64,000 bases of DNA. It comes from Candidatus Thioglobus sp. (GTDB taxonomy: Bacteria; Pseudomonadota; Gammaproteobacteria; PS1; Pseudothioglobaceae). Location of the stretch: the NCBI GenBank assembly GCA_028228555.1, contig JAOJBP010000001.1, positions 1-64,000 of the forward strand, written 5' to 3'. Shown here in pieces: positions 9,989 to 64,000 of the stretch (its first letter is position 1; every line of letters begins with the position of its first letter). The notes under the pieces are model-generated. The model had not been told where the DNA came from. It did no database searches and was given only the letters and a program-made list of their open reading frames with translations. A program made the translations under genes and the position numbers.

Positions 9989-11164
9989 CTAGTCTGAGTT
10001 AAATAAATCTCTTGTGTAAACCTTAGCTTTAACATCTTGCAATTCATTCACCATTCTATTGGCAACAATCACATCACTGATTTGCTTAAAGTCGTCTAAA
10101 TTATCAATAATCTTTGAATGGAAGAACTCATTCTCGCCCTGTTCTGTGAGTACCGGCTCATAAATAACCACTTCAATGCCTTTAGCTTTAATGCGCTTCA
10201 TGATACCTTGAATGCTTGATGCTCTAAAGTTATCAGAACCTGTCTTCATGATCAGTCTATGAACGCCAACAACCTTCGGTTGTTTGGCGATGATAGAGTC
10301 TGCAATAAAATCTTTACGCATCGCATTCGCATCAACAATAGCGCTGATTAAGGCATTAGGCACATCTGCATAATTGGCTTTGAGTTGTTTAGTGTCTTTT
10401 GGCAGACAATAGCCACCATATCCAAATGAAGGGTTGTTGTAGTGTGATCCAATTCTTGGATCAAGGCCTACACCCTCAATGATTTGTTTTGAGTTTAGGT
10501 TGTGCGTTTCTGCGTATGAGTCTAACTCATTAAAATATGACACGCGCATAGCTAAATAAGTATTACTAAAAAGCTTAACCGCCTCTGCCTCAGTAGAATT
10601 TGTAAATAAGACATCTATATCTTCTTTAATAGCGCCTTCTTGTAATAGGTCTGCAAAAACTTTAGCCCTATCTGATTGCTCACCAACAATAATACGCGAC
10701 GGATATAGATTGTCGTGTAGTGCCAAACCCTCTCTTAAAAACTCTGGTGAGAAAATAATATTATCGCAAATAAACTTCTCTTTAATACTTTGAGTGTAGC
10801 CAACTGGTACGGTTGATTTAATAATCATCACTGCATTAGGATTAATGCTAATAACATCTTGAATAACCGCTTCTACCGAAGCGGTATTAAAATAGTTGTT
10901 AGTGGTGTCGTAATCAGTAGGTGTGGCAATGATGACAAAATCAGCATTTTTATAGGCTAGCTGTTTATCCAGTGTGGCGGTAAAGTTAAGGTTTTTATTA
11001 GCTAGAAAATCTTCAATTTCAGCATCGACAATAGGGGGTATCTTGTTATTAAGTTGCTCAATCTTCTCAGGGATGATATCAAGGACGACTACCTCATGAT
11101 TTTGAGACAACAACATAGCATTAGACAGGCCTACGTAGCCGGTACCGGCTATTGCTATTTTCAT
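9989..11164 (-). CDS. ugd: UDP-glucose 6-dehydrogenase
   Basis: Oxidises UDP-glucose twice to UDP-glucuronate with NAD+. The Rossmann motif GTGYVGL begins at residue 7, and [15 protein letters not shown] contains the catalytic Cys and Lys. At 391 residues it belongs to the shorter E. coli Ugd-type class. The start ATG overlaps the stop of the heptosyltransferase gene (ATGA at 11161-11164), which places ugd second in the minus-strand run waaC-ugd-epimerase-GT2-LAB_N. Confidence 0.94.
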
Positions 11165-12165
11165 GGCTTATCCTTTAATAATTCTTTCGTTATTTTAACA
11201 ATATCACTCACTTTGATCGTTTTAATTGAAAAATCATTCTTGTCAATCTTATAAGGATCGACTTTAGATTCAGACTCAAGGACTTGATTAATGTTAGTTG
11301 TATAAGTATTGCGATAACCGGGTGTTGAGCCAAATAGCGCAATAGACTGAACATTGAGTGCCCACGCCATATGAGTTGGCCCGGTATCACCGCCAATTAC
11401 TAGATCCATTTTTTCGATAAATACTTTTAACTCATCTAGCGTTAATTTATCTGCAACCTGGACTGCTGGTGCAATTTTCTGAATTTGTTGCGCCATATTT
11501 TTTTCTGATTCATTGCCCCATAGTACAATAAAATTAGCATCTAATTCTTGAGCGATTTTAGCGTATTGCTCTAATGGATAAATTTTAGACTTGAAAGATG
11601 CGCCAGGAATTAGTGCAATGTTAGCTTTGTTATCGGAAATCACACTAGGTAATATTTTGCTAATAGAAAATAAGAAAGGCTGCTTATTTAAAATCTCATC
11701 ATGTGTAATCGTAATGCCTAGAGCTCTAGCTATTATAGCAGTATTACGGTTGATAATATTTTTATCATAACCAATTTTGCAAGTATCTGTATAAAACCAA
11801 GCAGCAAATGATTCGCGTAAGGAATTCTTATCAAAACCAAAGATTCTATCTGATGGGGTTATGCGAGATACAAGTGCAGATTTAATCAATCCTTGTAAAT
11901 CAATGACCAGATCATACCTTGGTAATTTTCTAAGTTTTTTAAACTCTTTAAATAGCAAGCTTAAAGATTTATTTTTCTTAGCTTGCTTAATATTAACCGT
12001 ATGGATAGCATTGATATCAGGATTATTCATTAAGATATCTTTAAAACCTTCTTCAACAATCCAGTCAATACTTGAGTCAGGCAAATGGTGCTTGATAAAT
12101 TGCAACGCGACCATGGCGTGGATAATATCCCCTAAGGCAGAAAGTTTAACGATTGCAATTCTCAT
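11161..12165 (-). CDS. waaC: Lipopolysaccharide heptosyltransferase I
   Basis: A GT9 family enzyme adding the first heptose to Kdo of the LPS inner core. The N-terminus [18 protein letters not shown] is the conserved acceptor-site start of heptosyltransferases. [13 protein letters not shown] near the C-terminus binds the ADP-heptose donor. The frame is open to 12195, but the family start is the Met at 12165, giving 334 residues. It is divergent from glnS and heads a five-gene run. Confidence 0.9.
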
Positions 12166-54461: not shown

Positions 54462-54854
54462 ATGGTTAGCACTCAAACACCTATTTGTGACTTTAACACG
54501 CCCGCTTTTGATTTTGAATTAAAGGGTACTGATGGTCAACTACATACATTAGAGAGCTGTAAAGGTGAAAAAGGTTTGCTGGTTATGTTTATTTGCAACC
54601 ATTGTCCCTATGTAAAAGCCATTATTGATCGAATTATTCGTGATACTGCCGAGCTTAAAGAGATGGGTTTAAATACAGTGGCTATCATGTCAAATAATCC
54701 TGATGAGTATAAAGATGATTCTTTTGTAAATATGCAAAAAATTTCTAAAGAAATGAACTTTGGTTTCCCCTACTTAATAGATGAAACACAAGAAATAGCT
54801 AAGGCCTATGGTGCGGTTTGCACGCCTGATTTCTTTGGCACGGTAAACATTTAA
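54462..54854 (+). CDS. 3'-truncated thioredoxin-family (AhpC/TSA-like) protein
   Basis: The first 125 or so residues match thioredoxin-like proteins of the redoxin family that are normally about 185 residues long. NTPAFDFELKGTDGQ and the active-site motif FICNHCPYVK (Cys45, Cys48) are followed by YLIDETQEIAKAYGAVCTPD. Right after TPDFFG the sequence leaves the family and stops within five codons, at 54854. The missing part includes the final strand and helix, so the product is probably inactive or unstable. The break coincides with the start of the recombinase-trio region. Confidence 0.75.
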   Translation: MVSTQTPICDFNTPAFDFELKGTDGQLHTLESCKGEKGLLVMFICNHCPYVKAIIDRIIRDTAELKEMGLNTVAIMSNNPDEYKDDSFVNMQKISKEMNFGFPYLIDETQEIAKAYGAVCTPDFFGTVNI

Positions 54855-54950
54855 ACCATACCCAGTACTACTTTACTTTCAATCTATAGACATTTTTCTC
54901 GCATAAGTCTAAATTTAATCTATTAAGCAATATACGTTGTAAAACTAATA

Positions 54951-55196
54951 CTAATCAATACTGTAGTGATCCCCGCCTTTCATAAGAAATTTTTTCCCGC
55001 TAATTTTCTCACATTCACCTATAGCTTCAACCAAAGCACTTTCTATCACACCTGAAAATGTAAGTTTATAACCATTATTTTTAGCCTCTGCACTAGCCCT
55101 TTTAAAAGCCTTCATTAGTTCAGTATCAACCCTAGCGCTAATCATTTTCTTTTTATCTTGGTCTGAATCTTTTTTTACAAATTTATATGCTGTCAT
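54951..55196 (-). CDS. Small ribbon-helix-helix-like DNA-binding protein
   Basis: An 81-residue basic protein. KMISARVDTELMKAFKRASA looks like the beta-strand and first helix of a ribbon-helix-helix fold, followed by a helix YKLTFSGVIESALVEAIGEC. Arc/MetJ and some antitoxins look like this, but no toxin gene lies beside it. AGGAG is five bases before the start. It is divergent from the recombinases across a gap that contains a perfect palindrome, so it may repress the element's genes. Confidence 0.65.
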   Translation of the reverse strand: MTAYKFVKKDSDQDKKKMISARVDTELMKAFKRASAEAKNNGYKLTFSGVIESALVEAIGECEKISGKKFLMKGGDHYSID

Positions 55197-55231
55197 GTAA
55201 CTCCTATTGCTTATTGTTTGCTTTGCTATAC

Positions 55232-55266
55232 TTTATATAATATATATATTATATATATTATATAAA
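55232..55266. repeat. Perfect 16-bp AT-only inverted repeat
   Basis: TTTATATAATATATAT (55232-55247) is exactly reversed and complemented at 55251-55266, with ATT between. It lies between the small DNA-binding protein gene and the first recombinase. It may be an operator, a strand-opening site or a recombinase-binding site. Part of it also offers -10-like words for both directions. Confidence 0.8.
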
Positions 55267-55427
55267 TAATGTAAAGTCAAAATGTATTGACATTTAATAC
55301 TTTTTAAGTTAAAAATACAATTAATCAAAATGATAGATGACTTTCAGATTTCAGTAATCATTTATTTTTGACTTTAATATTATTCTAAATTTTGATTGAG
55401 AAATAGATCTCAAAACTCATTTAATCT

Positions 55428-56723
55428 ATGGCAATACTTGAAAATATACAGCACCAACCTTTTGAATTCAAACCGTCTTCTGAGAACTTAGAATATGGAT
55501 TTATACCAAACACTAATAGAAAAATAGAAAAATCATTTCCTCAAATTTTCTTTTCAGATGGAGAGCCATGGCATGAAGTCAATCGATATGCTTTTTCTCG
55601 TTATTACGACCAACAAATAGATATAAAAACTGTTAACCGTGAAATGACTCATTTATCTCGTTATGCAAATTGGCTAGAAGAGGCAAGATTGCACTGGTTA
55701 CATTTTCCTAAGAAAAAATATGAACGATGTTTATTTAAATTTAGAGGATATCTAATATGGCTTAGGAATGAAGGTTTTTTAGCTCCATCAACAACATCAC
55801 AAACAATGAGAAATGTAGTAGCATTTTATCGGTGGGCATCAGACGAAGGATATGCACAAGCACAATCAAATTTATTTAATGATAAAAATAAAATCGTCTA
55901 CTTTTTTGACAATGTTGGTTTTAATCGTTCTATGAACGTGGTCTCTTCAGAGCTTTTTATTCCAAACCGGAAAAGAACAGGAACTCTACTAGAAGATGGA
56001 TTAATCCCTATTAATCAAGCTAGTACTAAAATTCTAATGACTCACCTATCTAAACACAGTAACCATGAGTTGCACCTGATGTTCAAGACCGCTCTTCTTA
56101 CAGGTTGTCGTCATGAAACAATATCAACTTTAAATATTGATACACTCAAGAAGTCTTACCCTGATCCTTTATTGTTAAATACCATGAGAGTTGAGATTGG
56201 TCCTGGGACCGGTGTTGAAACAAAGTTTGATGTGCATGGAGCTGTTTATTTTCCCAAATCACTGGTTATTGAATTGATTGAATATTTTGACTCCGCAGAA
56301 GCAATATTAAGGCGCTCTAAAGCTAAAAAATCGCTCCAAAGAAATATATTTTTAACTTCTCATGGAAATAGATATACAAAAGAAACATTTGGCACATTAT
56401 TGTATCGATTAAAGGAAGAGTTAATTGAATCTGGCCATACTGAATTTGGGCGATTTAAATTTCACCAATTAAGAGCAACCTTCGGAACGATGATGATGCG
56501 TGCATTATTGCAAACTCAAGACGTTTCATCTCTAAATGCTATTGAATTTGTAAAAAGATCTATGCTTCATAAAGATGAAAGCACAACTTGGAAATATATC
56601 AAATTTATTGAACACGAGCCTATTGAAGAGCAATTCTTGGAAGTTTTGTGGGCAATGTTTACTGGATCACTCGAACAATCTCAAGACATTATCGAGAACT
56701 TGACAAACGGGGAGGAGGCTTGA
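55428..56723 (+). CDS. Tyrosine recombinase/integrase, first of trio
   Basis: A 431-residue site-specific recombinase. An N-terminal SAM-like core-binding region (about residues 60-190) is followed by the catalytic domain. Box I Arg lies in LLTGCRHETISTLNI, HxxR is in FHQLRATFGTMMM, then His in MLHKDESTTWKYIKF with the likely nucleophile Tyr in the same block. All catalytic residues expected of an active enzyme are present. It resembles TnpA of Tn554-like elements in position. Its stop overlaps the next gene's TTG start. Confidence 0.85.
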   Translation: MAILENIQHQPFEFKPSSENLEYGFIPNTNRKIEKSFPQIFFSDGEPWHEVNRYAFSRYYDQQIDIKTVNREMTHLSRYANWLEEARLHWLHFPKKKYERCLFKFRGYLIWLRNEGFLAPSTTSQTMRNVVAFYRWASDEGYAQAQSNLFNDKNKIVYFFDNVGFNRSMNVVSSELFIPNRKRTGTLLEDGLIPINQASTKILMTHLSKHSNHELHLMFKTALLTGCRHETISTLNIDTLKKSYPDPLLLNTMRVEIGPGTGVETKFDVHGAVYFPKSLVIELIEYFDSAEAILRRSKAKKSLQRNIFLTSHGNRYTKETFGTLLYRLKEELIESGHTEFGRFKFHQLRATFGTMMMRALLQTQDVSSLNAIEFVKRSMLHKDESTTWKYIKFIEHEPIEEQFLEVLWAMFTGSLEQSQDIIENLTNGEEA

Positions 56724-58366
56724 TATCAAGCGAACTTCCAGACCTAACTGTTAAACATCAAAGCATTGCAGAAAACGAACTGCAAGTGTGGAATTTAATG
56801 CCTTTTGTATACCTTGGAGGGGCAAAGATAAAAAGAAATGGTTCCTGGATTTTGGAGGTTCAAAAACTACCGCTTGTCCCAGAGCGCATTAAGGTCATCC
56901 TGTCACTAAAAACGCATGTGATTGAAATGCTAGACTCCGGCAGTTCTTACCGTTCGATACAAAGCTTTTTAAGCGGATTGAAGGCGTTTATCCATTTTGT
57001 AGATGGGAGTAACAAAAACCTAGCAACCCCGGAAGAAATTGAAACAGCCTTATATGATTATGCGGAGTATCAATACACTCGCTATAGTCATAATAAAATA
57101 AAAATGAGTGCTGCATATTTATATGTTTATTTTGTGCGAAATATTTTTACTGGAGCTTTTGAAGATGTTAACTTCGACTTAAGATACACTCGATTAAACA
57201 AAACAGTCAAATCACAAAGGGCTACTAGTCGTGAAGCAGAGAAAGTAATGCTTACCGATGCCTCCAAATTAGCCGCCTTTTGTTTTGACATAACTACTAA
57301 TTTTGAACCTAACAATCTTAATCATGGAACACTTCCTATCAAAATTGAAATAAGAAGAAAGTTTTTAAAAGAATCTATCAATTTAACACCTAGCTACACA
57401 AAAAATACTCCCATAAATAAAAGCTTTTTTTATACAGAAGCCTCTCACGCCTTTAATAATCGAGTATCTGCTGAATCCATGATTTTCCTTGCAATGACTA
57501 TTCAGAATATTTCACCAACATACAACCTTAAAATTGAAAAATTCAGCTTTAAGCCTATCGGTGAAAAATACGAGGTAAGAGAGTTCAAAAATCGCAGAGG
57601 CGGTGAAGTTCTATTTAAAATACCAAAGCCATACAGACCACACTTTGAACGATATCTAGATTTTATTCACGAATATGCGCCTGAATCAAAATGGCTTTTT
57701 CCTTTTTTAAAAAAAGGAGTTGGGTATAAAAAAAGAATCGGCAACAGAGCTTACGGTCTAAAGAGGATTTGCATTAAATATCAAATCCCCTGGATACCTC
57801 CTAAGAACTTTAGAAAAATCGGTGAAAATGTTCTCATGCGACTATGTTCAGATGGGCAAACTACAGCGGATTATGCTAACCATGGAATTGCAACATTTAG
57901 ACAATCATACGAGCTTCCATCACTACAAAGAGCAATGATAGAAGTTGGAAGTTTTTGGGATAAAAACGACCCTTTAATACATGGGCCACCCAAAGTATCT
58001 TTATTCAATACACCATGCAATGGAATTCCAAAAGAAATTACTGACTCAACAAACAAACTTCCTAAACCAGATTGTATCAATCCAGCTGGCTGTATTGGCT
58101 GTAAACATTATAGAGATGAAGACTCTTTTGATTATGTGTGGAATTTGTGCAGTTTTAAATACCTAAAAATTGTTGAGTCAAGCTCTCACCGAACAAAAGA
58201 GGGGAAACCTTCAAATATTGCCATTGATTGGGCTAATATTAAAATTAACTGGTTCAAAAACTCTAAAAAATTAAAGCATAGAGAGTGGACTGAAGAGGCC
58301 AAAGCAAGAATTGAAGAAGGTCACTATCACTCTATATGGTCTAGAAAAATACAAGGAATAAATTAA
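56720..58366 (+). CDS. Tyrosine-recombinase-like protein, second of trio (degenerate)
   Basis: A 548-residue protein with TTG start at 56720 overlapping the previous stop (TTGA), just after GGGGAGGAGG. The C-terminal half has the outline of a tyrosine recombinase: NHGIATFRQSYELPS resembles the His...Tyr block and PKNFRKIGENVLM the HxxR block, but with Asn for His. The box I segment TIQNISPTYNLKIEKF lacks the usual Arg. It ends with a Cys-rich motif (CINPAGCIGC then LCSF) that could bind zinc. It is probably a structural partner of the active recombinases. The start choice is tentative, and the frame is open from 56648. Confidence 0.7.
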   Translation: MISSELPDLTVKHQSIAENELQVWNLMPFVYLGGAKIKRNGSWILEVQKLPLVPERIKVILSLKTHVIEMLDSGSSYRSIQSFLSGLKAFIHFVDGSNKNLATPEEIETALYDYAEYQYTRYSHNKIKMSAAYLYVYFVRNIFTGAFEDVNFDLRYTRLNKTVKSQRATSREAEKVMLTDASKLAAFCFDITTNFEPNNLNHGTLPIKIEIRRKFLKESINLTPSYTKNTPINKSFFYTEASHAFNNRVSAESMIFLAMTIQNISPTYNLKIEKFSFKPIGEKYEVREFKNRRGGEVLFKIPKPYRPHFERYLDFIHEYAPESKWLFPFLKKGVGYKKRIGNRAYGLKRICIKYQIPWIPPKNFRKIGENVLMRLCSDGQTTADYANHGIATFRQSYELPSLQRAMIEVGSFWDKNDPLIHGPPKVSLFNTPCNGIPKEITDSTNKLPKPDCINPAGCIGCKHYRDEDSFDYVWNLCSFKYLKIVESSSHRTKEGKPSNIAIDWANIKINWFKNSKKLKHREWTEEAKARIEEGHYHSIWSRKIQGIN

Positions 58367-60331
58367 ATGCTCAATCCTATGGAAAATTTACAATTTAAAG
58401 CAGATGTTAAATTTATATCTAAGGATTCTCCCTGCTTTAAATCCAAGGATTACCCGCCTAAAGATGATTTTGTAATGTCTATCGATGAAAATGAGGTCAT
58501 TGTAAGTTTATATGGAGATGATAAATGGGACTTCCGCCCTTTTGGAGGTAAGGGTGAGTTTCAATTTGGAGAGTATGATAACGCCAACAAACGCTTGTTC
58601 AAAAATATTATGTATTACCTCATATACAGCCATTTGTGTCCTTCAAAATATGCCAGTTTAAACGCTTGGTATTTAACTCTACGAAAGATTTTTAGATATT
58701 GCCACATCAACGAAATAAAAGCTAACGATTTAAGTCGCTATCCTAAGGCTATCGAAGAAATTGCTAAAAAAATTGCCAAAGACTCACCATCAATTTTTGT
58801 AACAACAGTTCTTCATCTGAACATTTTTTACAAGAATAATGAGCAAATCGGGTTCACGTTATTAAATAAAAATAGCATTACCTTATTTAAGTCTTTTGAC
58901 CCATCTTATAAAATGGGACAAACACCATATATTCCAGTGAGAATCTGGACAAACTTTATTCAACATCTCGACTCTGTGTTGGATGATTTTGAATGCAATC
59001 AAAATAAACTTGAGAAGCTTTTTCACTATTTAACTTCTGCTTATATTTCAAATGAAAATAAAGGGATTAGGGATCCTAGTCCTTTTAGTCAAAATAGTGC
59101 CAAGGATAAAATTAAATATAACGGAACATTTGAACAATATTTAAAAAGAAACAAATTACTAAAGTTTTTTGAACGGCATGTTGAGCGAATTAAAGACTCT
59201 AACACATATGATATTAGTCAATTTTCTTCTTTATTAAATAATACAATGTTAAGCTGCTTTATGTTTGTCATTTACTACTCGATAATGAGAAAAAATGAGG
59301 CAACCTCACTTCGTGCTGATTGTTTGATAACAGAAACAGATGAAAGATTGGGTGACTTCTTTCTACTTAGAGGTGAAACCACCAAGACTGACCCTGATAG
59401 CGATGATCGCTGGGTTGTCTGCAATCGTGTTGAGCGAGCTATAGCCATAGCCAAAACATTGCTAGAGTGGAAGCTTAAATACATAAAGCAGCATAAAGAA
59501 ACACATTATCTCTTTCAAAAAATAGATGTATGGCGTAAAGATGAGCGAACTTCAAAAGCAAGGGATTATGATTCATGCCAACATTTAATCAGCAGAGATA
59601 ATTTTAGTTTTTTCAATCTTGAACAGCATCGAATCACCCAAGAGGATTACGAAGAAGCGCTTGCACTTACACCATCTCTGATCAGAGAAGATTGGTTTAA
59701 AGTTGGAAACATCTGGCAATTCGGATTTCATCAATTCAGGCGCACCCTGGCAGTTCATTTTGCTTTAAATAGAGTCTCTTCTTCATCCACGCAGCTGCAA
59801 ATGAAACATGGCACTCGAGAACAACAGTTTCATTATCAAAACAATGCTGGTAGGCTACGCTTAAATCAGTCGGCTGAACAAGAGGTTGTAAATGAATATT
59901 ACGCTGAAATGGCGAGAAATATATCTTCAGTTGTGTATGGAGAAGATTCAATCACGCACACAAAATCACCTATAACTCAAGAGGTTGCTCGTTTTGTTGA
60001 AGAAGGCGAAATGAAGAAGCTACTAAAGGCTCAAAAAAATGGAGCAGTCGGCTACAGAAAGAATTTACTTGGTGGATGCATGAAACAAGGAACTTGTAAA
60101 TACGGAGGATTTGATTCAATTACCCATTGTGCTGGTGGTAATCGAAAAAGTATGTGTTCAGACCTTGTAATTGATAGCTCAAGAGAACAAGAGTTTAAAA
60201 AAGATAAGGCGCACTATGAAAATCAAATGGATGGAGCGCCTGAGAACTCTCCTCGTTACAAGTCTTTAAAGGCTGAGGTTCGAGGTTATAAGAAGGTCCT
60301 AGATATTATTAAAAACAAAAAGGCAGTATAG
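58367..60331 (+). CDS. Tyrosine recombinase-like protein, third of trio
   Basis: A 654-residue protein starting directly after the previous stop. Catalytic features are box I Arg in YSIMRKNEATSLRADCL, Lys in GETTKTDPDSD, HxxR in FHQFRRTLAVHF, and KHGTREQQFHYQNN with His and the likely nucleophile Tyr. A long N-terminal region (about 1-290) carries the DNA-binding part. The C-terminus has a Cys cluster (GGCMKQGTCKYGG, THCAGG, SMCSD) and ends in a charged helix. It is in the position of TnpB in Tn554-like elements. It appears catalytically competent. Confidence 0.8.
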   Translation: MLNPMENLQFKADVKFISKDSPCFKSKDYPPKDDFVMSIDENEVIVSLYGDDKWDFRPFGGKGEFQFGEYDNANKRLFKNIMYYLIYSHLCPSKYASLNAWYLTLRKIFRYCHINEIKANDLSRYPKAIEEIAKKIAKDSPSIFVTTVLHLNIFYKNNEQIGFTLLNKNSITLFKSFDPSYKMGQTPYIPVRIWTNFIQHLDSVLDDFECNQNKLEKLFHYLTSAYISNENKGIRDPSPFSQNSAKDKIKYNGTFEQYLKRNKLLKFFERHVERIKDSNTYDISQFSSLLNNTMLSCFMFVIYYSIMRKNEATSLRADCLITETDERLGDFFLLRGETTKTDPDSDDRWVVCNRVERAIAIAKTLLEWKLKYIKQHKETHYLFQKIDVWRKDERTSKARDYDSCQHLISRDNFSFFNLEQHRITQEDYEEALALTPSLIREDWFKVGNIWQFGFHQFRRTLAVHFALNRVSSSSTQLQMKHGTREQQFHYQNNAGRLRLNQSAEQEVVNEYYAEMARNISSVVYGEDSITHTKSPITQEVARFVEEGEMKKLLKAQKNGAVGYRKNLLGGCMKQGTCKYGGFDSITHCAGGNRKSMCSDLVIDSSREQEFKKDKAHYENQMDGAPENSPRYKSLKAEVRGYKKVLDIIKNKKAV

Positions 60332-60332
60332 A

Positions 60333-60722
60333 ATGAGTAAAGCAGAAAAAATGTTCAGAGAGGCCTTTAATCGTCTCAAAACTGGCACACCTATTAATAC
60401 TCCAAAGGGGACTAAAATAAGTCAAAATAATGTAGCAAAAGAGGCTGAAAAACACCCTACAGCCCTAAAAAAAGACCGCTTCCCATTGTTGGTTCTCGAG
60501 ATACAAGATTATTTAAAACAGCAAGAAATTGATAGTGATCTTCTTAACAAGAAAAAGCAACTACGCAAACAACGAACCCTTGAACAGCGATTGTCAGACT
60601 GCAAAAAACAAAGGGATAAGCTAGTTTCTATATGTGAAGCGCAATTTCAACATATAGAGCAACTTCAAGATGATGTTTCTGATCTAGGAAAAAGAACAAG
60701 TAAGTCAACACTTACGCTCTAA
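60333..60722 (+). CDS. Small coiled-coil accessory protein of the recombinase element
   Basis: A 129-residue protein starting two bases after the third recombinase. It is highly charged. The N-terminal part (KMFREAFNRLKTGTP, then KISQNNVAKEAEKHP) looks like a short HTH-like region, followed by a long helix rich in Lys, Gln and Glu (about 75-120) likely to form a coiled coil. In size and position it matches TnpC-type accessory proteins of Tn554-like elements. Sequence kinship was not established. Confidence 0.7.
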   Translation: MSKAEKMFREAFNRLKTGTPINTPKGTKISQNNVAKEAEKHPTALKKDRFPLLVLEIQDYLKQQEIDSDLLNKKKQLRKQRTLEQRLSDCKKQRDKLVSICEAQFQHIEQLQDDVSDLGKRTSKSTLTL

Positions 60723-60997: not shown

Positions 60998-61453
60998 CTA
61001 TTTAAACCTTGTATCGTATTTTTTCTGCAATTCAGCAGGCCAAAGATCATGAATATAATTCAATACTGCTTGTTTTTCACCCTCACTTAATTGATTTTTA
61101 AATGCTGGCATCCAACCCCCTAACTTAATACCACCATTATCAATAGTCTTCATTAATGCTGACGGTGAATGGTGCCAAGCATGTGCTGTGCCATTAATGG
61201 GTGGCGCAGGAAACTTGCCATTTTCATCTCTTTTCTTCCAATCTTTAACAAGTCCTTGACCCTCTTTACCATGGCAAGAAATACAGTTTTTTTCAAATAT
61301 TGCCTGTCCAGATTTATCAGTATTGTTACTAGATAAGGTTTTTTCTACTGGCGTATTTGCATTTAAATTTTCCTGATTATTGTTCTGCGCCTCTTCACTA
61401 TCAAAGCAGCCTGTTAAAAATAATGCACTTGATAAAACGATTAATAGCTTCAT
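60998..61453 (-). CDS. c-type cytochrome lipoprotein
   Basis: A 151-residue cytochrome c. The lipobox LFLTGC puts the acylated Cys at 16, followed by a long polar linker rich in Asn (about 20-48). The heme is attached at CISCH (Cys57, Cys60, His61), and GGWMPAF offers the Met ligand. It would be tethered to a membrane facing the periplasm. As the last gene of the copper cluster, it may carry electrons for cuprous-ion oxidation or respiration. Confidence 0.85.
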   Translation of the reverse strand: MKLLIVLSSALFLTGCFDSEEAQNNNQENLNANTPVEKTLSSNNTDKSGQAIFEKNCISCHGKEGQGLVKDWKKRDENGKFPAPPINGTAHAWHHSPSALMKTIDNGGIKLGGWMPAFKNQLSEGEKQAVLNYIHDLWPAELQKKYDTRFK

Positions 61454-61477
61454 AACCTTTCCTCTTTAAATAATTTT

Positions 61478-61912
61478 TTAATGTCGACCACGTCCGCCGC
61501 CCATACCGCCACGACTCATACCACTAGAGCCACCTTGTCCGCCACCCATGCTTTCTCTAAAAGCTTGTCGATCTTGGTCAGACATTGATTGCATTTGACC
61601 TCTAAAAGCCTGACGATCTTCATTTGACATTGATTGCATTTTATTACGCATATCGCCACCACTCCCCATGCCATTTTGACCCATCCCAGAATTCATATTA
61701 TTCATAAATTCCTGTCTTTCTTGAGTCGACATAAGCTCCATATTATTACGACTTTCATCTCTAAAATTTAACCGATCTGAAGCCGATACAGATTGAAACA
61801 AAGCGCCCCTATGCGTATGACCTTCATGGACATGATTGGCATCAATAGCCACATCTGCTTGCACCATTTGAGTGCCAAAAATTAACACTGATGTTATTAA
61901 TATTTTATTCAT
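61478..61912 (-). CDS. Exported Met/His/Gly-rich protein of copper cluster
   Basis: A 144-residue protein not assigned to a family. A signal peptide (ILITSVLIFGTQMVQA) is followed by DVAIDANHVHEGHTHRG, a His-rich stretch likely to bind metal. Then come two near-identical segments (MQSMSNEDRQAFRGQ and MQSMSDQDRQAFRES) spaced by few residues, and a Gly-Met-Arg-rich tail. Many Met residues suggest Cu(I) handling in the periplasm. That role is an inference from composition and neighbours. Confidence 0.6.
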   Translation of the reverse strand: MNKILITSVLIFGTQMVQADVAIDANHVHEGHTHRGALFQSVSASDRLNFRDESRNNMELMSTQERQEFMNNMNSGMGQNGMGSGGDMRNKMQSMSNEDRQAFRGQMQSMSDQDRQAFRESMGGGQGGSSGMSRGGMGGGRGRH

Positions 61913-61946
61913 TGTATTTTCCTTAAAAATTTAACTACGTACTGTA

Positions 61947-62459
61947 TTACATGCGTCCGCCGCCCATGCCACCTGAACTTGAGCCACCGCCCATACCGCC
62001 TGAACTTGAGCCTGAATCACTCCCATGTCCGCCGTCTGATGCTCCGCCCATACTACCAGAGCCAGAGCTACCATCCATTGAGCTGCCATGCTCAGCAATG
62101 CTAACATCTTGTTGCGCTTGCATGGCTTCTCTAGTACTAGTTGTTACTGTTTCTATGTTTGCTATTGCATCCGATACTGTTAAGTTAGCAGTATCAAGTG
62201 CTGCTTGCGCATCTGCTAATAACGTCAAATCAGCTGGGTCTACGGCATCATAGGCCGCTTGCGCGCTGACTAAATCAGACTGAGTAGTTGATACTAGAGC
62301 TCTAGCATCTGCAACACCAGACTCTATTTGACTACTGCCATCATTCCAATTAAAGCCACTACTATGATAATTGGCATCATGTGCAGCATTTGCTGTTACT
62401 AATAAACTCGCTGAAAAAGCAAATAAAATTCCTTTAATAATCTTTTTCTTTTTATCCAT
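61947..62459 (-). CDS. Exported Ala/Gly/Ser/Met-rich protein of copper cluster
   Basis: A 170-residue protein, family not recognised. It has a signal peptide (IIKGILFAFSASLLVTANA, cut before AHDAN), a central helical Ala/Asp/Thr-rich part (about residues 45-115), and a low-complexity tail of Gly, Ser and Met with repeated SSGGMGGG. The His-containing N-terminus (AHDANYHSSG) and Met-rich tail suggest periplasmic copper binding, as for the neighbour gene. Its GC-rich tail differs from the AT-rich surroundings. Confidence 0.6.
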   Translation of the reverse strand: MDKKKKIIKGILFAFSASLLVTANAAHDANYHSSGFNWNDGSSQIESGVADARALVSTTQSDLVSAQAAYDAVDPADLTLLADAQAALDTANLTVSDAIANIETVTTSTREAMQAQQDVSIAEHGSSMDGSSGSGSMGGASDGGHGSDSGSSSGGMGGGSSSGGMGGGRM

Positions 62460-62504
62460 GTTGTTTTCTCCTTTAATTGTTGTTTTATCCTTTGGTTGTT
62501 TTTT

Positions 62505-62909
62505 TTATTTGTTATAAGAGGGTTTTTGTACAGAACGTACATAGGCAACAATATCACTTACCCTTTCAGGTGGAACGCCTGTAATCATAGGCATGTCGCC
62601 AAATTTCCAATGATGCTGCCTAACGCCATTCTTAACTGCATAAAAAAATGATAAATCTGAATGATGCAATGGCTCATATGTACTATCGAGTAACGATGGC
62701 CCTTGGCCGGTTCCCATCAGACCCTCTCCATGACATCTTACGCATGATTGTTGATATCCACTTTCCCCTTTAGAGACATTAGCTTTGTAATTCAAGCTAG
62801 GCAATAGATCTTGACTAGCAACTCTTTTTGACTTCATCCACTCACTTTCGGACAATAGCGTAAAGAAACCAATCATAAGGGCCAATATAACCAATAAGGT
62901 CTTACCCAT
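62505..62909 (-). CDS. c-type cytochrome, membrane-anchored or secreted
   Basis: A 134-residue class I cytochrome c. An N-terminal hydrophobic segment (TLLVILALMIGFFTLL) is an anchor or signal. The heme site is CVRCH (Cys56, Cys59, His60), and FGDMPMITGV gives the Met ligand. The C-terminal VSDIVAYVRSVQ is the usual last helix. It lies between copB and the Gly-rich genes. Cytochromes of this type occur next to copA/copB in some copper-resistance clusters. Confidence 0.85.
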   Translation of the reverse strand: MGKTLLVILALMIGFFTLLSESEWMKSKRVASQDLLPSLNYKANVSKGESGYQQSCVRCHGEGLMGTGQGPSLLDSTYEPLHHSDLSFFYAVKNGVRQHHWKFGDMPMITGVPPERVSDIVAYVRSVQKPSYNK

Positions 62910-62971
62910 TTTTTTTCAATCTATCAGTATCAATGTAGCAATCACTTAACATTGGTATCTTTCAGGATACT

Positions 62972-63673
62972 TTAAAACCAAAAGCGAATACCTGTAACAA
63001 TTTGAGCATCTTCAACATCCTCACCTTCATTATTTGCAAAAGTTGCAGTATTTCCATATTTTTTACCCCAGTTAACACCGACATAAGGCGCAAACTCACG
63101 ACTTAATTCGTATCTTAGTCTAAGCCCTGCTTCGATATTAGATAACCCTTTCCCTGTGCCGGTCACCTCATCATCTTTTCCAAAGAAATTAACCTCAACT
63201 TCTGGCGATAAGACCAATTTCTGGCTAAACATATATTCGTACTCAAGATCTAAGCGCACGGCGGTACGTCCGGATTCACCAACAAACAATGAAGCATCCA
63301 CTTCAAGCAAATAAGGCGCCAAACCTTTGGCAGCAATTACACCCCAAGTTCGACTAGGCGTGGGCTTGAAATCTTTTTTGATGCCATATTGCAAATCCCA
63401 GAAAGGGGTAGTTGCTTTACTATAAAGAACTTGTAATTCTGCTTCAGTGATTTTTCCATTAAGTTTTTCACCTTCAGTTTTAATCCATATTTTTTCAAGA
63501 TCTTTACCAACCCAAGCGTCAACAGCCCAAACTTTAGGATTAGAGCCTGCCGTGCTTCGTGTTTCAATTTCACCCATCACTTTAGTTAGTATTGGGTCAT
63601 CATCTACGCCACCTGCATGTGCCAAGAATGATAAGCCTAAAAGCAAACTGGTTAATATTTTTATTTTTTTCAT
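62972..63673 (-). CDS. copB: Copper resistance protein B, short form
   Basis: A 233-residue outer-membrane beta-barrel protein. The signal peptide is ILTSLLLGLSFLAHA. WAVDAWVGKDLEKIWIKTEG, VLYSKATTPFWDLQYGI, and the C-terminal APYVGVNWGKKYGN with terminal IRFWF match CopB. The Met/His-rich N-terminal domain of classic CopB (about 300 residues or longer) is absent. It follows copA after 15 bases. Confidence 0.9.
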   Translation of the reverse strand: MKKIKILTSLLLGLSFLAHAGGVDDDPILTKVMGEIETRSTAGSNPKVWAVDAWVGKDLEKIWIKTEGEKLNGKITEAELQVLYSKATTPFWDLQYGIKKDFKPTPSRTWGVIAAKGLAPYLLEVDASLFVGESGRTAVRLDLEYEYMFSQKLVLSPEVEVNFFGKDDEVTGTGKGLSNIEAGLRLRYELSREFAPYVGVNWGKKYGNTATFANNEGEDVEDAQIVTGIRFWF

Positions 63674-63688
63674 TTTATCTCTCTTTCG

Positions 63689-64000
63689 TTATACAACATC
63701 CACACGACGGAACATGCCCAACATGTGATAAAGTAAATGACAATGATATGCCCAAGAACCTTTGGCATCGACTTTAACGCGATAGCTAATTTTTGCGCCT
63801 GGCTGAACAATCACCGTGTGTTTGCGTGGGATATACATATTGTCTCCCGTTTCTAAATCACTCCACATGCCGTGTAAATGCATAGGGTGGTTCATCATCG
63901 TATCATTCACAAAAGTAATACGCACAACTTCGCCAAATTTAAATTGTAGCGGCTCAGCATCGGAAAACTTTACACCATTAATAGACCACATATAGCGACT
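63689..64000 (-). CDS. copA: CopA multicopper oxidase, C-terminal part (runs off window)
   Basis: The last roughly 100 residues of CopA, the periplasmic multicopper oxidase of copper resistance. HPMHLHGMW is the T1/T3 copper motif, HCHLLYHMLGMF is the terminal T1/T3 motif with the axial Met, and PGAKISYRVKVD lies between. The stop is at 63689. The 5' part lies beyond the right edge, so this is incomplete only because of the window. It heads the minus-strand copper cluster seen here. Confidence 0.92.
   Translation of the reverse strand, partial: SRYMWSINGVKFSDAEPLQFKFGEVVRITFVNDTMMNHPMHLHGMWSDLETGDNMYIPRKHTVIVQPGAKISYRVKVDAKGSWAYHCHLLYHMLGMFRRVDVV

Follow-up and report, generated by a model that had tools for sequence, protein, structure and literature searches.

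The recombinase operon close to the right side of the window, by which we mean the whole 64,000-nucleotide stretch of Candidatus Thioglobus sp. DNA analyzed here (contig JAOJBP010000001.1, positions 1 to 64,000), is best explained as the core of a strand-biased circularizing integrative element (SE) that is inserted in a redoxin gene and carries an intact redoxin copy altered at the attachment site. We assign this reading as a whole a probability of about 0.92. The element occupies the forward strand from position 54838 to the end of the window at 64000 and runs on to contig position 70048, 15,211 bp in total; known SEs have a median length of 15.7 kb. The host genome comprises 1.25 Mb in a multi-contig assembly. 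No SE relatives were found in 82 other genomes of the host family and order, making the present element the only SE found among 83 genomes of its order.

The ends were placed by comparison with empty sites. The 5' part of the host gene, a member of the AhpC/TSA redoxin family (Pfam AhpC-TSA, E value 2e-18), lies at 54462-54837 on the forward strand and is cut after the codons for ...CTPDFFG, while its 3' part continues from contig position 70055, beyond the window. Relatives of the same genus hold the intact gene, and blastn alignments against these empty sites break at 54838/54839 and start again from 70055/70056, which puts the ends at 54838 and 70048 and extends the element past the window. 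The first-pass annotation had come very near the left end, at 54835, but its right boundary at 60722 falls inside the element, and what it described as a compact unit ending there is only the first part of an element of 15.2 kb.

At the left end stands the 11-bp motif C, CACGGTAAACA (54838-54848, forward strand), and at the right end its inverted repeat C', TGTTTACCGTG (70038-70048). Motif C is identical at the left end of locus L025, and close variants occur in L026 and L028. SEs are defined as having imperfect inverted repeats of 13 to 19 bp at their ends; here 11 bases are identical at each end and identity declines further in, which we count as agreement with that definition. The left end is preceded by the 6 bp CTTTGG (attB; 54832-54837, forward strand; compared with the empty sites L008 and L009), and the right end is followed by TAAAGT (70049-70054) and then by the host sequence TTATAATGCG, as in L008. 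The 6 bp next to C' are thus foreign to the target, as in other SEs; the corresponding bases in L028 are CTCACT. The attR pattern was not found in viral contigs or in the other genomes of the order. A second apparently broken target gene, in genome G011, was rejected as a scaffold gap (Ns) in which one end is duplicated. Inside the left end lies a subterminal repeat, TATAGACA (54885-54892, forward strand), which recurs at 69925 and 69968 and, with one mismatch and on the reverse strand, at 70022. The pattern T[A/G]TAGACA has just one more exact match elsewhere within the element, and repeats resembling it are also present close to the ends of L025, L026, and L028. These copies may be arm-type binding sites.

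Four genes on the forward strand make up the core: intA (55428-56723; 431 amino acids [aa]), tfp (56720-58366; 548 aa), intB (58367-60331; 654 aa), and srap (60333-60722; 129 aa). The TTG start of tfp overlaps the intA stop codon, the TAA of tfp is followed by the ATG of intB, and srap comes directly after intB. IntA is a tyrosine recombinase with a complete catalytic set (R228, K266, H346xxR349, H381, and Y390), as is the large recombinase IntB (R308, K340, H455xxR458, H481, and Y490). Tfp, a protein of the tyrosine recombinase fold, has Asn at the position of Arg I (N263) and has lost the His of HxxR but keeps the Lys, Arg II, His, and Tyr. All of this gene content, together with an 81-aa ribbon-helix-helix (RHH)-like open reading frame (ORF) divergent from intA, and the reading of two complete catalytic sets flanking a degenerate middle protein, had been described correctly in the first-pass annotation. 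The residues N263, K290, R365, H388, and Y397 are invariant in 24 Tfp homologues, and a partial residue set fixed in this way indicates that the middle protein has not simply decayed.

Family models recognize these proteins poorly. The only Pfam match among the core proteins is that of IntA to Phage_integrase (E value 1.6e-5), just under the cut-off, and an NCBIfam scan of all four found no family above the cut-off. The model NF040692, which we take to be that of the gamma-mobile-trio family, is labelled only "recomb_assoc" and had no control hit, so that its result is uninformative. A Tfp profile search against PDB sequences returned no recombinase, and a search of genome contigs with Tfp alone gave no match. 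The predicted fold of Tfp is that of a tyrosine recombinase, the best Z scores being about 10 (an integrase, XerH, and Cre), in a model that is poor near Y397 (pLDDT below 50 at 387-410). Because profile-profile comparison of IntA, Tfp, and IntB gives statistically weak alignments, the residue assignment in Tfp relies on motifs, spacing, and predicted fold. On this basis Tfp appears to have conserved Arg II, His, and Tyr positions, which refines the description of Tfp as a protein without the RHRY motif by Idola et al. 2023 (PMC10214605). Srap combines a helical N-terminal part with a long C-terminal helix (model pLDDT 84); we claim no fold class for it because all of its fold matches are weak (best Z score, 5.3). 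Conserved Cys clusters were also seen in the C-terminal parts of Tfp (C452, C458, and C461; window positions 58016-58110) and IntB (C571, C577, C588, and C597; 60077-60160), each a possible metal-binding module.

The four core proteins are one-to-one orthologues of SE IntA, Tfp, IntB, and Srap, encoded in the same order. IntA is 43% identical to its counterpart in L002 and 35% to that of SE-PaeBT2436, the tmexCD-toprJ SE; the values are 32% and 28% for IntB and 44% and 42% for Srap, while Tfp is 27 to 31% identical to SE Tfp proteins. All of these alignments cover nearly the full length. SE-PaeBT2436 has the orthologous intA, tfp, intB, and srap in the same order at 28 to 42% identity (PMC10214605). 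Its name was given by Idola et al. (PMC10214605) to the element with the Tfp/Srap pair WP_034039553.1/WP_023443007.1, found here in L004, where the copy adjoins umuD, carries tmexCD, and has no RHH match. The closest core proteins found are those of the SE-like loci L025 and L026 (uncultured Glaciecola/Alteromonadaceae) and L028 (Methyloprofundus), with 55 to 67% identity in IntA and up to 79%, in L028, in Srap. These three loci share the same or a similar motif C but differ in cargo, and none has the RHH gene; L025 and L026 are located in comM-like genes. A search of plasmid proteins for IntB relatives yielded 240 records; most of these relatives carry the annotation hypothetical, and they are typically encoded in four-gene operons. 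The orthology of all four genes, in order, extends to such plasmid-borne SEs.

The distribution of catalytic residues, with RHRY in IntA and IntB and an incomplete set in Tfp, is that of SEs. Tn554 likewise has two recombinases and a TnpC-type small protein and also brings in donor bases, but Tn554 and Tn552-II (tnpABC; hosts Staphylococcus and Enterococcus) lack a counterpart of Tfp, and the fourth gene, tfp, sets the present element apart from that three-gene family. Recombinase-in-trio (RIT) elements are defined by three recombinases of 315 to 410 aa, all with the catalytic Tyr, and no fourth gene; the proteins here have 431, 548, and 654 aa and are accompanied by Srap. The first-pass annotation was right to see a mobile unit built on recombinases, in which the middle subunit is degenerate and the small partner resembles TnpC of Tn554, and which is neither a plain Tn554 nor a RIT element. 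Its suggestion of a separate variety does not hold. Every one of the four genes has a one-to-one orthologue in the SEs, a class already described (Idola et al. 2023, PMC10214605), and this is the outcome that the annotation had itself named as refuting the suggestion.

GInts, the ginABCD islands that form a sister group, have the same general plan. They too encode a small helical protein alongside three that resemble recombinases, all essential, and use a 6-nt spacer (PMC5385486), and GinC also lacks the first Arg. However, Tfp and Srap of the present element can be aligned over their entire length with those of published SEs (30% and 42% identity), and in the analysis of Idola et al. (PMC10214605) GinC/GinD cluster apart from Tfp/Srap. 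L002 has a second unit of four genes that illustrates what a non-SE unit, a candidate GInt, looks like; its protein at the Tfp position is unlike the present Tfp. That the element is itself a GInt is thus very unlikely. The second unit of L002 (12371-17414; proteins of 385, 538, 617, and 117 aa) is diverged and lies between the SE core and a mer operon; its proteins match Tfp and Srap poorly, and it may be a GInt. A shade less probable still is an element kind of its own, in which four recombination proteins come with their own repressor. The left end does hold a divergent RHH gene (54951-55196, reverse strand), a candidate regulator, and a palindrome between it and intA. The distance between C and intA is 590 bp here and about 109 bp in each of L025, L026, and L028. 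But no counterpart of the RHH gene was found in 42 other SE loci, so four proteins and a regulator do not constitute the single conserved unit that had been suggested.

The RHH fold class is read from the sequence only, with no family match above the cut-off. Relatives of the protein, 38 to 42% identical, are encoded on chromosomes of the same family, and none was found on plasmids. With no match in the 42 loci and its nearest relatives on chromosomes, the RHH gene looks like a local addition, acquired in this member of the SEs. The palindrome (55232-55266), a possible operator whose presence had been noted in the first-pass annotation, scores 17, whereas the maximum in 200 Markov shuffles was 13 (0/200 reach 17), but it consists purely of A+T. 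The RHH protein may regulate intA via this palindrome. Two chromosomal RHH relatives, in L100 (1483-2073) and L101 (1147-1701), are followed by a small conserved ORF of 74 to 80 aa, a possible two-gene unit.

If the element works like the SEs that have been tested, IntA and IntB, together with Srap and a presumably noncatalytic Tfp, would join C and C' via exchange of one strand, yielding a nicked circular copy while the donor keeps its own (copy-out). The circle would then insert (copy-in) at a fixed site in the redoxin gene, with the 6 bp of the donor site ending up beside C' and the 6 bp of the target beside C. The host gene is split, the carried intact redoxin should restore its function, and the carried gene, being altered at the attachment site, should itself be a poor target. 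With a Tfp that lacks Arg I, part of the synapse might be incapable of cleavage, which could impose the strand bias. The conserved replacement of Arg I by Asn in Tfp, with the Tyr kept, offers a specific hypothesis to account for the exchange of a single strand.

Downstream of the core, the cargo starts with genes for two cytochromes c, two small secreted-type proteins, and CopB (60998-63673, reverse strand; Pfam matches to CopB, E value 1.7e-81, and to Cytochrome_CBB3), followed on the same strand by the C-terminal end of a multicopper oxidase (63689-64000, the gene continuing to 65485). Past the window come a cytochrome c, a two-component system of a histidine kinase and a response regulator, and the intact redoxin gene (69355-69912; 185 aa), which lies about 126 bp inside the right end and has a good ribosome-binding site, AAAGGAGGGG. 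Over the first 124 residues of the interrupted gene, the carried redoxin shares 63% identity with it, and this genome has no other match to that gene. At the attachment site it reads CTTTGGTCTATCAAAAC, versus CTTTGGYTATAATGC in the host gene.

The same arrangement occurs in a second element. The SE of L028 also carries a redoxin gene adjoining its right end, 84% identical to the present one, and its other cargo is unrelated, consisting of restriction-modification-like genes. The right flank of L028 resumes within the same codon as that of the present element but with a different 6 bp, CTCACT rather than TAAAGT, which agrees with the prediction of the SE rule. The carried redoxins of both elements depart from nearly all host genes just past FFG, where the attachment site lies. 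The left flank of L028 (1-60) ends in another redoxin codon, ...LLVMFIC, and the right flank (11000-11066) restarts at YNADLKL, about 78 residues after the left-flank end; there is thus no single empty site, and one insertion cannot yield both flanks. Two insertions may have formed a hybrid here, or the assembly may be at fault.

A chimeric allele was found in G004, a related genome in which neither Tfp nor an SE was detected. Its redoxin gene (L013, contig C19, about 1500-2055) is host-like 5' and element-like 3' of the site: compared with other host genes, it has 79 to 85% amino acid identity before the site and 61 to 70% after it, and compared with the carried copies, 64 to 66% before and 79 and 91% after. 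This chimera would be explained if a host gene had recombined with a carried copy; transfer of a diverged allele is an alternative. In another relative, G007, the redoxin gene (L017, C4:28743-28922) lacks about residues 28 to 90, a deletion with no SE.

Carriage of a target gene is not new in kind, since SE-6283, which targets bcp, is published as carrying a bcp copy (PMC9345347). SE-6283 and SE-6283-like elements of Vibrio share the four core genes, the 6-bp rule, and insertion into a gene of the redoxin superfamily (PMC9345347). Unlike bcp, the target here scores poorly against a Bcp-type thiol peroxidase model (PRK09437; E value 0.0018; 18/140 bits), and unlike SE-6283, the present element has copper cargo and an RHH gene. 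Tn552-II also carries a gene like its target, for which rescue was proposed. Among umuC-inserted SEs, that of Stutzerimonas stutzeri 4C29 (genome G415; L076/L091, joined 10278-11973) has complete umuD and umuC directly after srap, while five others examined (G410, G413, G418, and two in G420) showed no second umuC copy. With a target copy in only one of six, target replacement is not general: target-gene carriage recurs among SEs but is not universal.

The redoxin copy might instead be ordinary cargo or a resident duplicate rather than a replacement kept by selection, considering that redoxin genes are common, that just two elements with this particular redoxin target were found, and that most of the umuC-targeting SEs have no target copy. 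Yet in both elements the copy belongs to the same family as the target and lies beside the right end amid otherwise unrelated cargo; here it is altered at the attachment site and is the sole intact match to the broken gene, and bcp-targeting SEs carry bcp. We consider ordinary cargo rather improbable and favor a replacement for the gene that was broken.

Beside the published bcp case, the present element provides a second redoxin target among elements that bring along a copy of the very gene they disrupt. We give even odds to a broader model, in which some SEs break housekeeping redox or repair genes and supply a site-altered replacement that would keep the host fit, block a second insertion (immunity), and be able to recombine with the host gene into a site-resistant chimera that outlasts the element. 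With the copy and the right site common to two elements of unrelated cargo in different bacteria, and with a chimeric allele in one relative, such a "break and replace" idea is testable.
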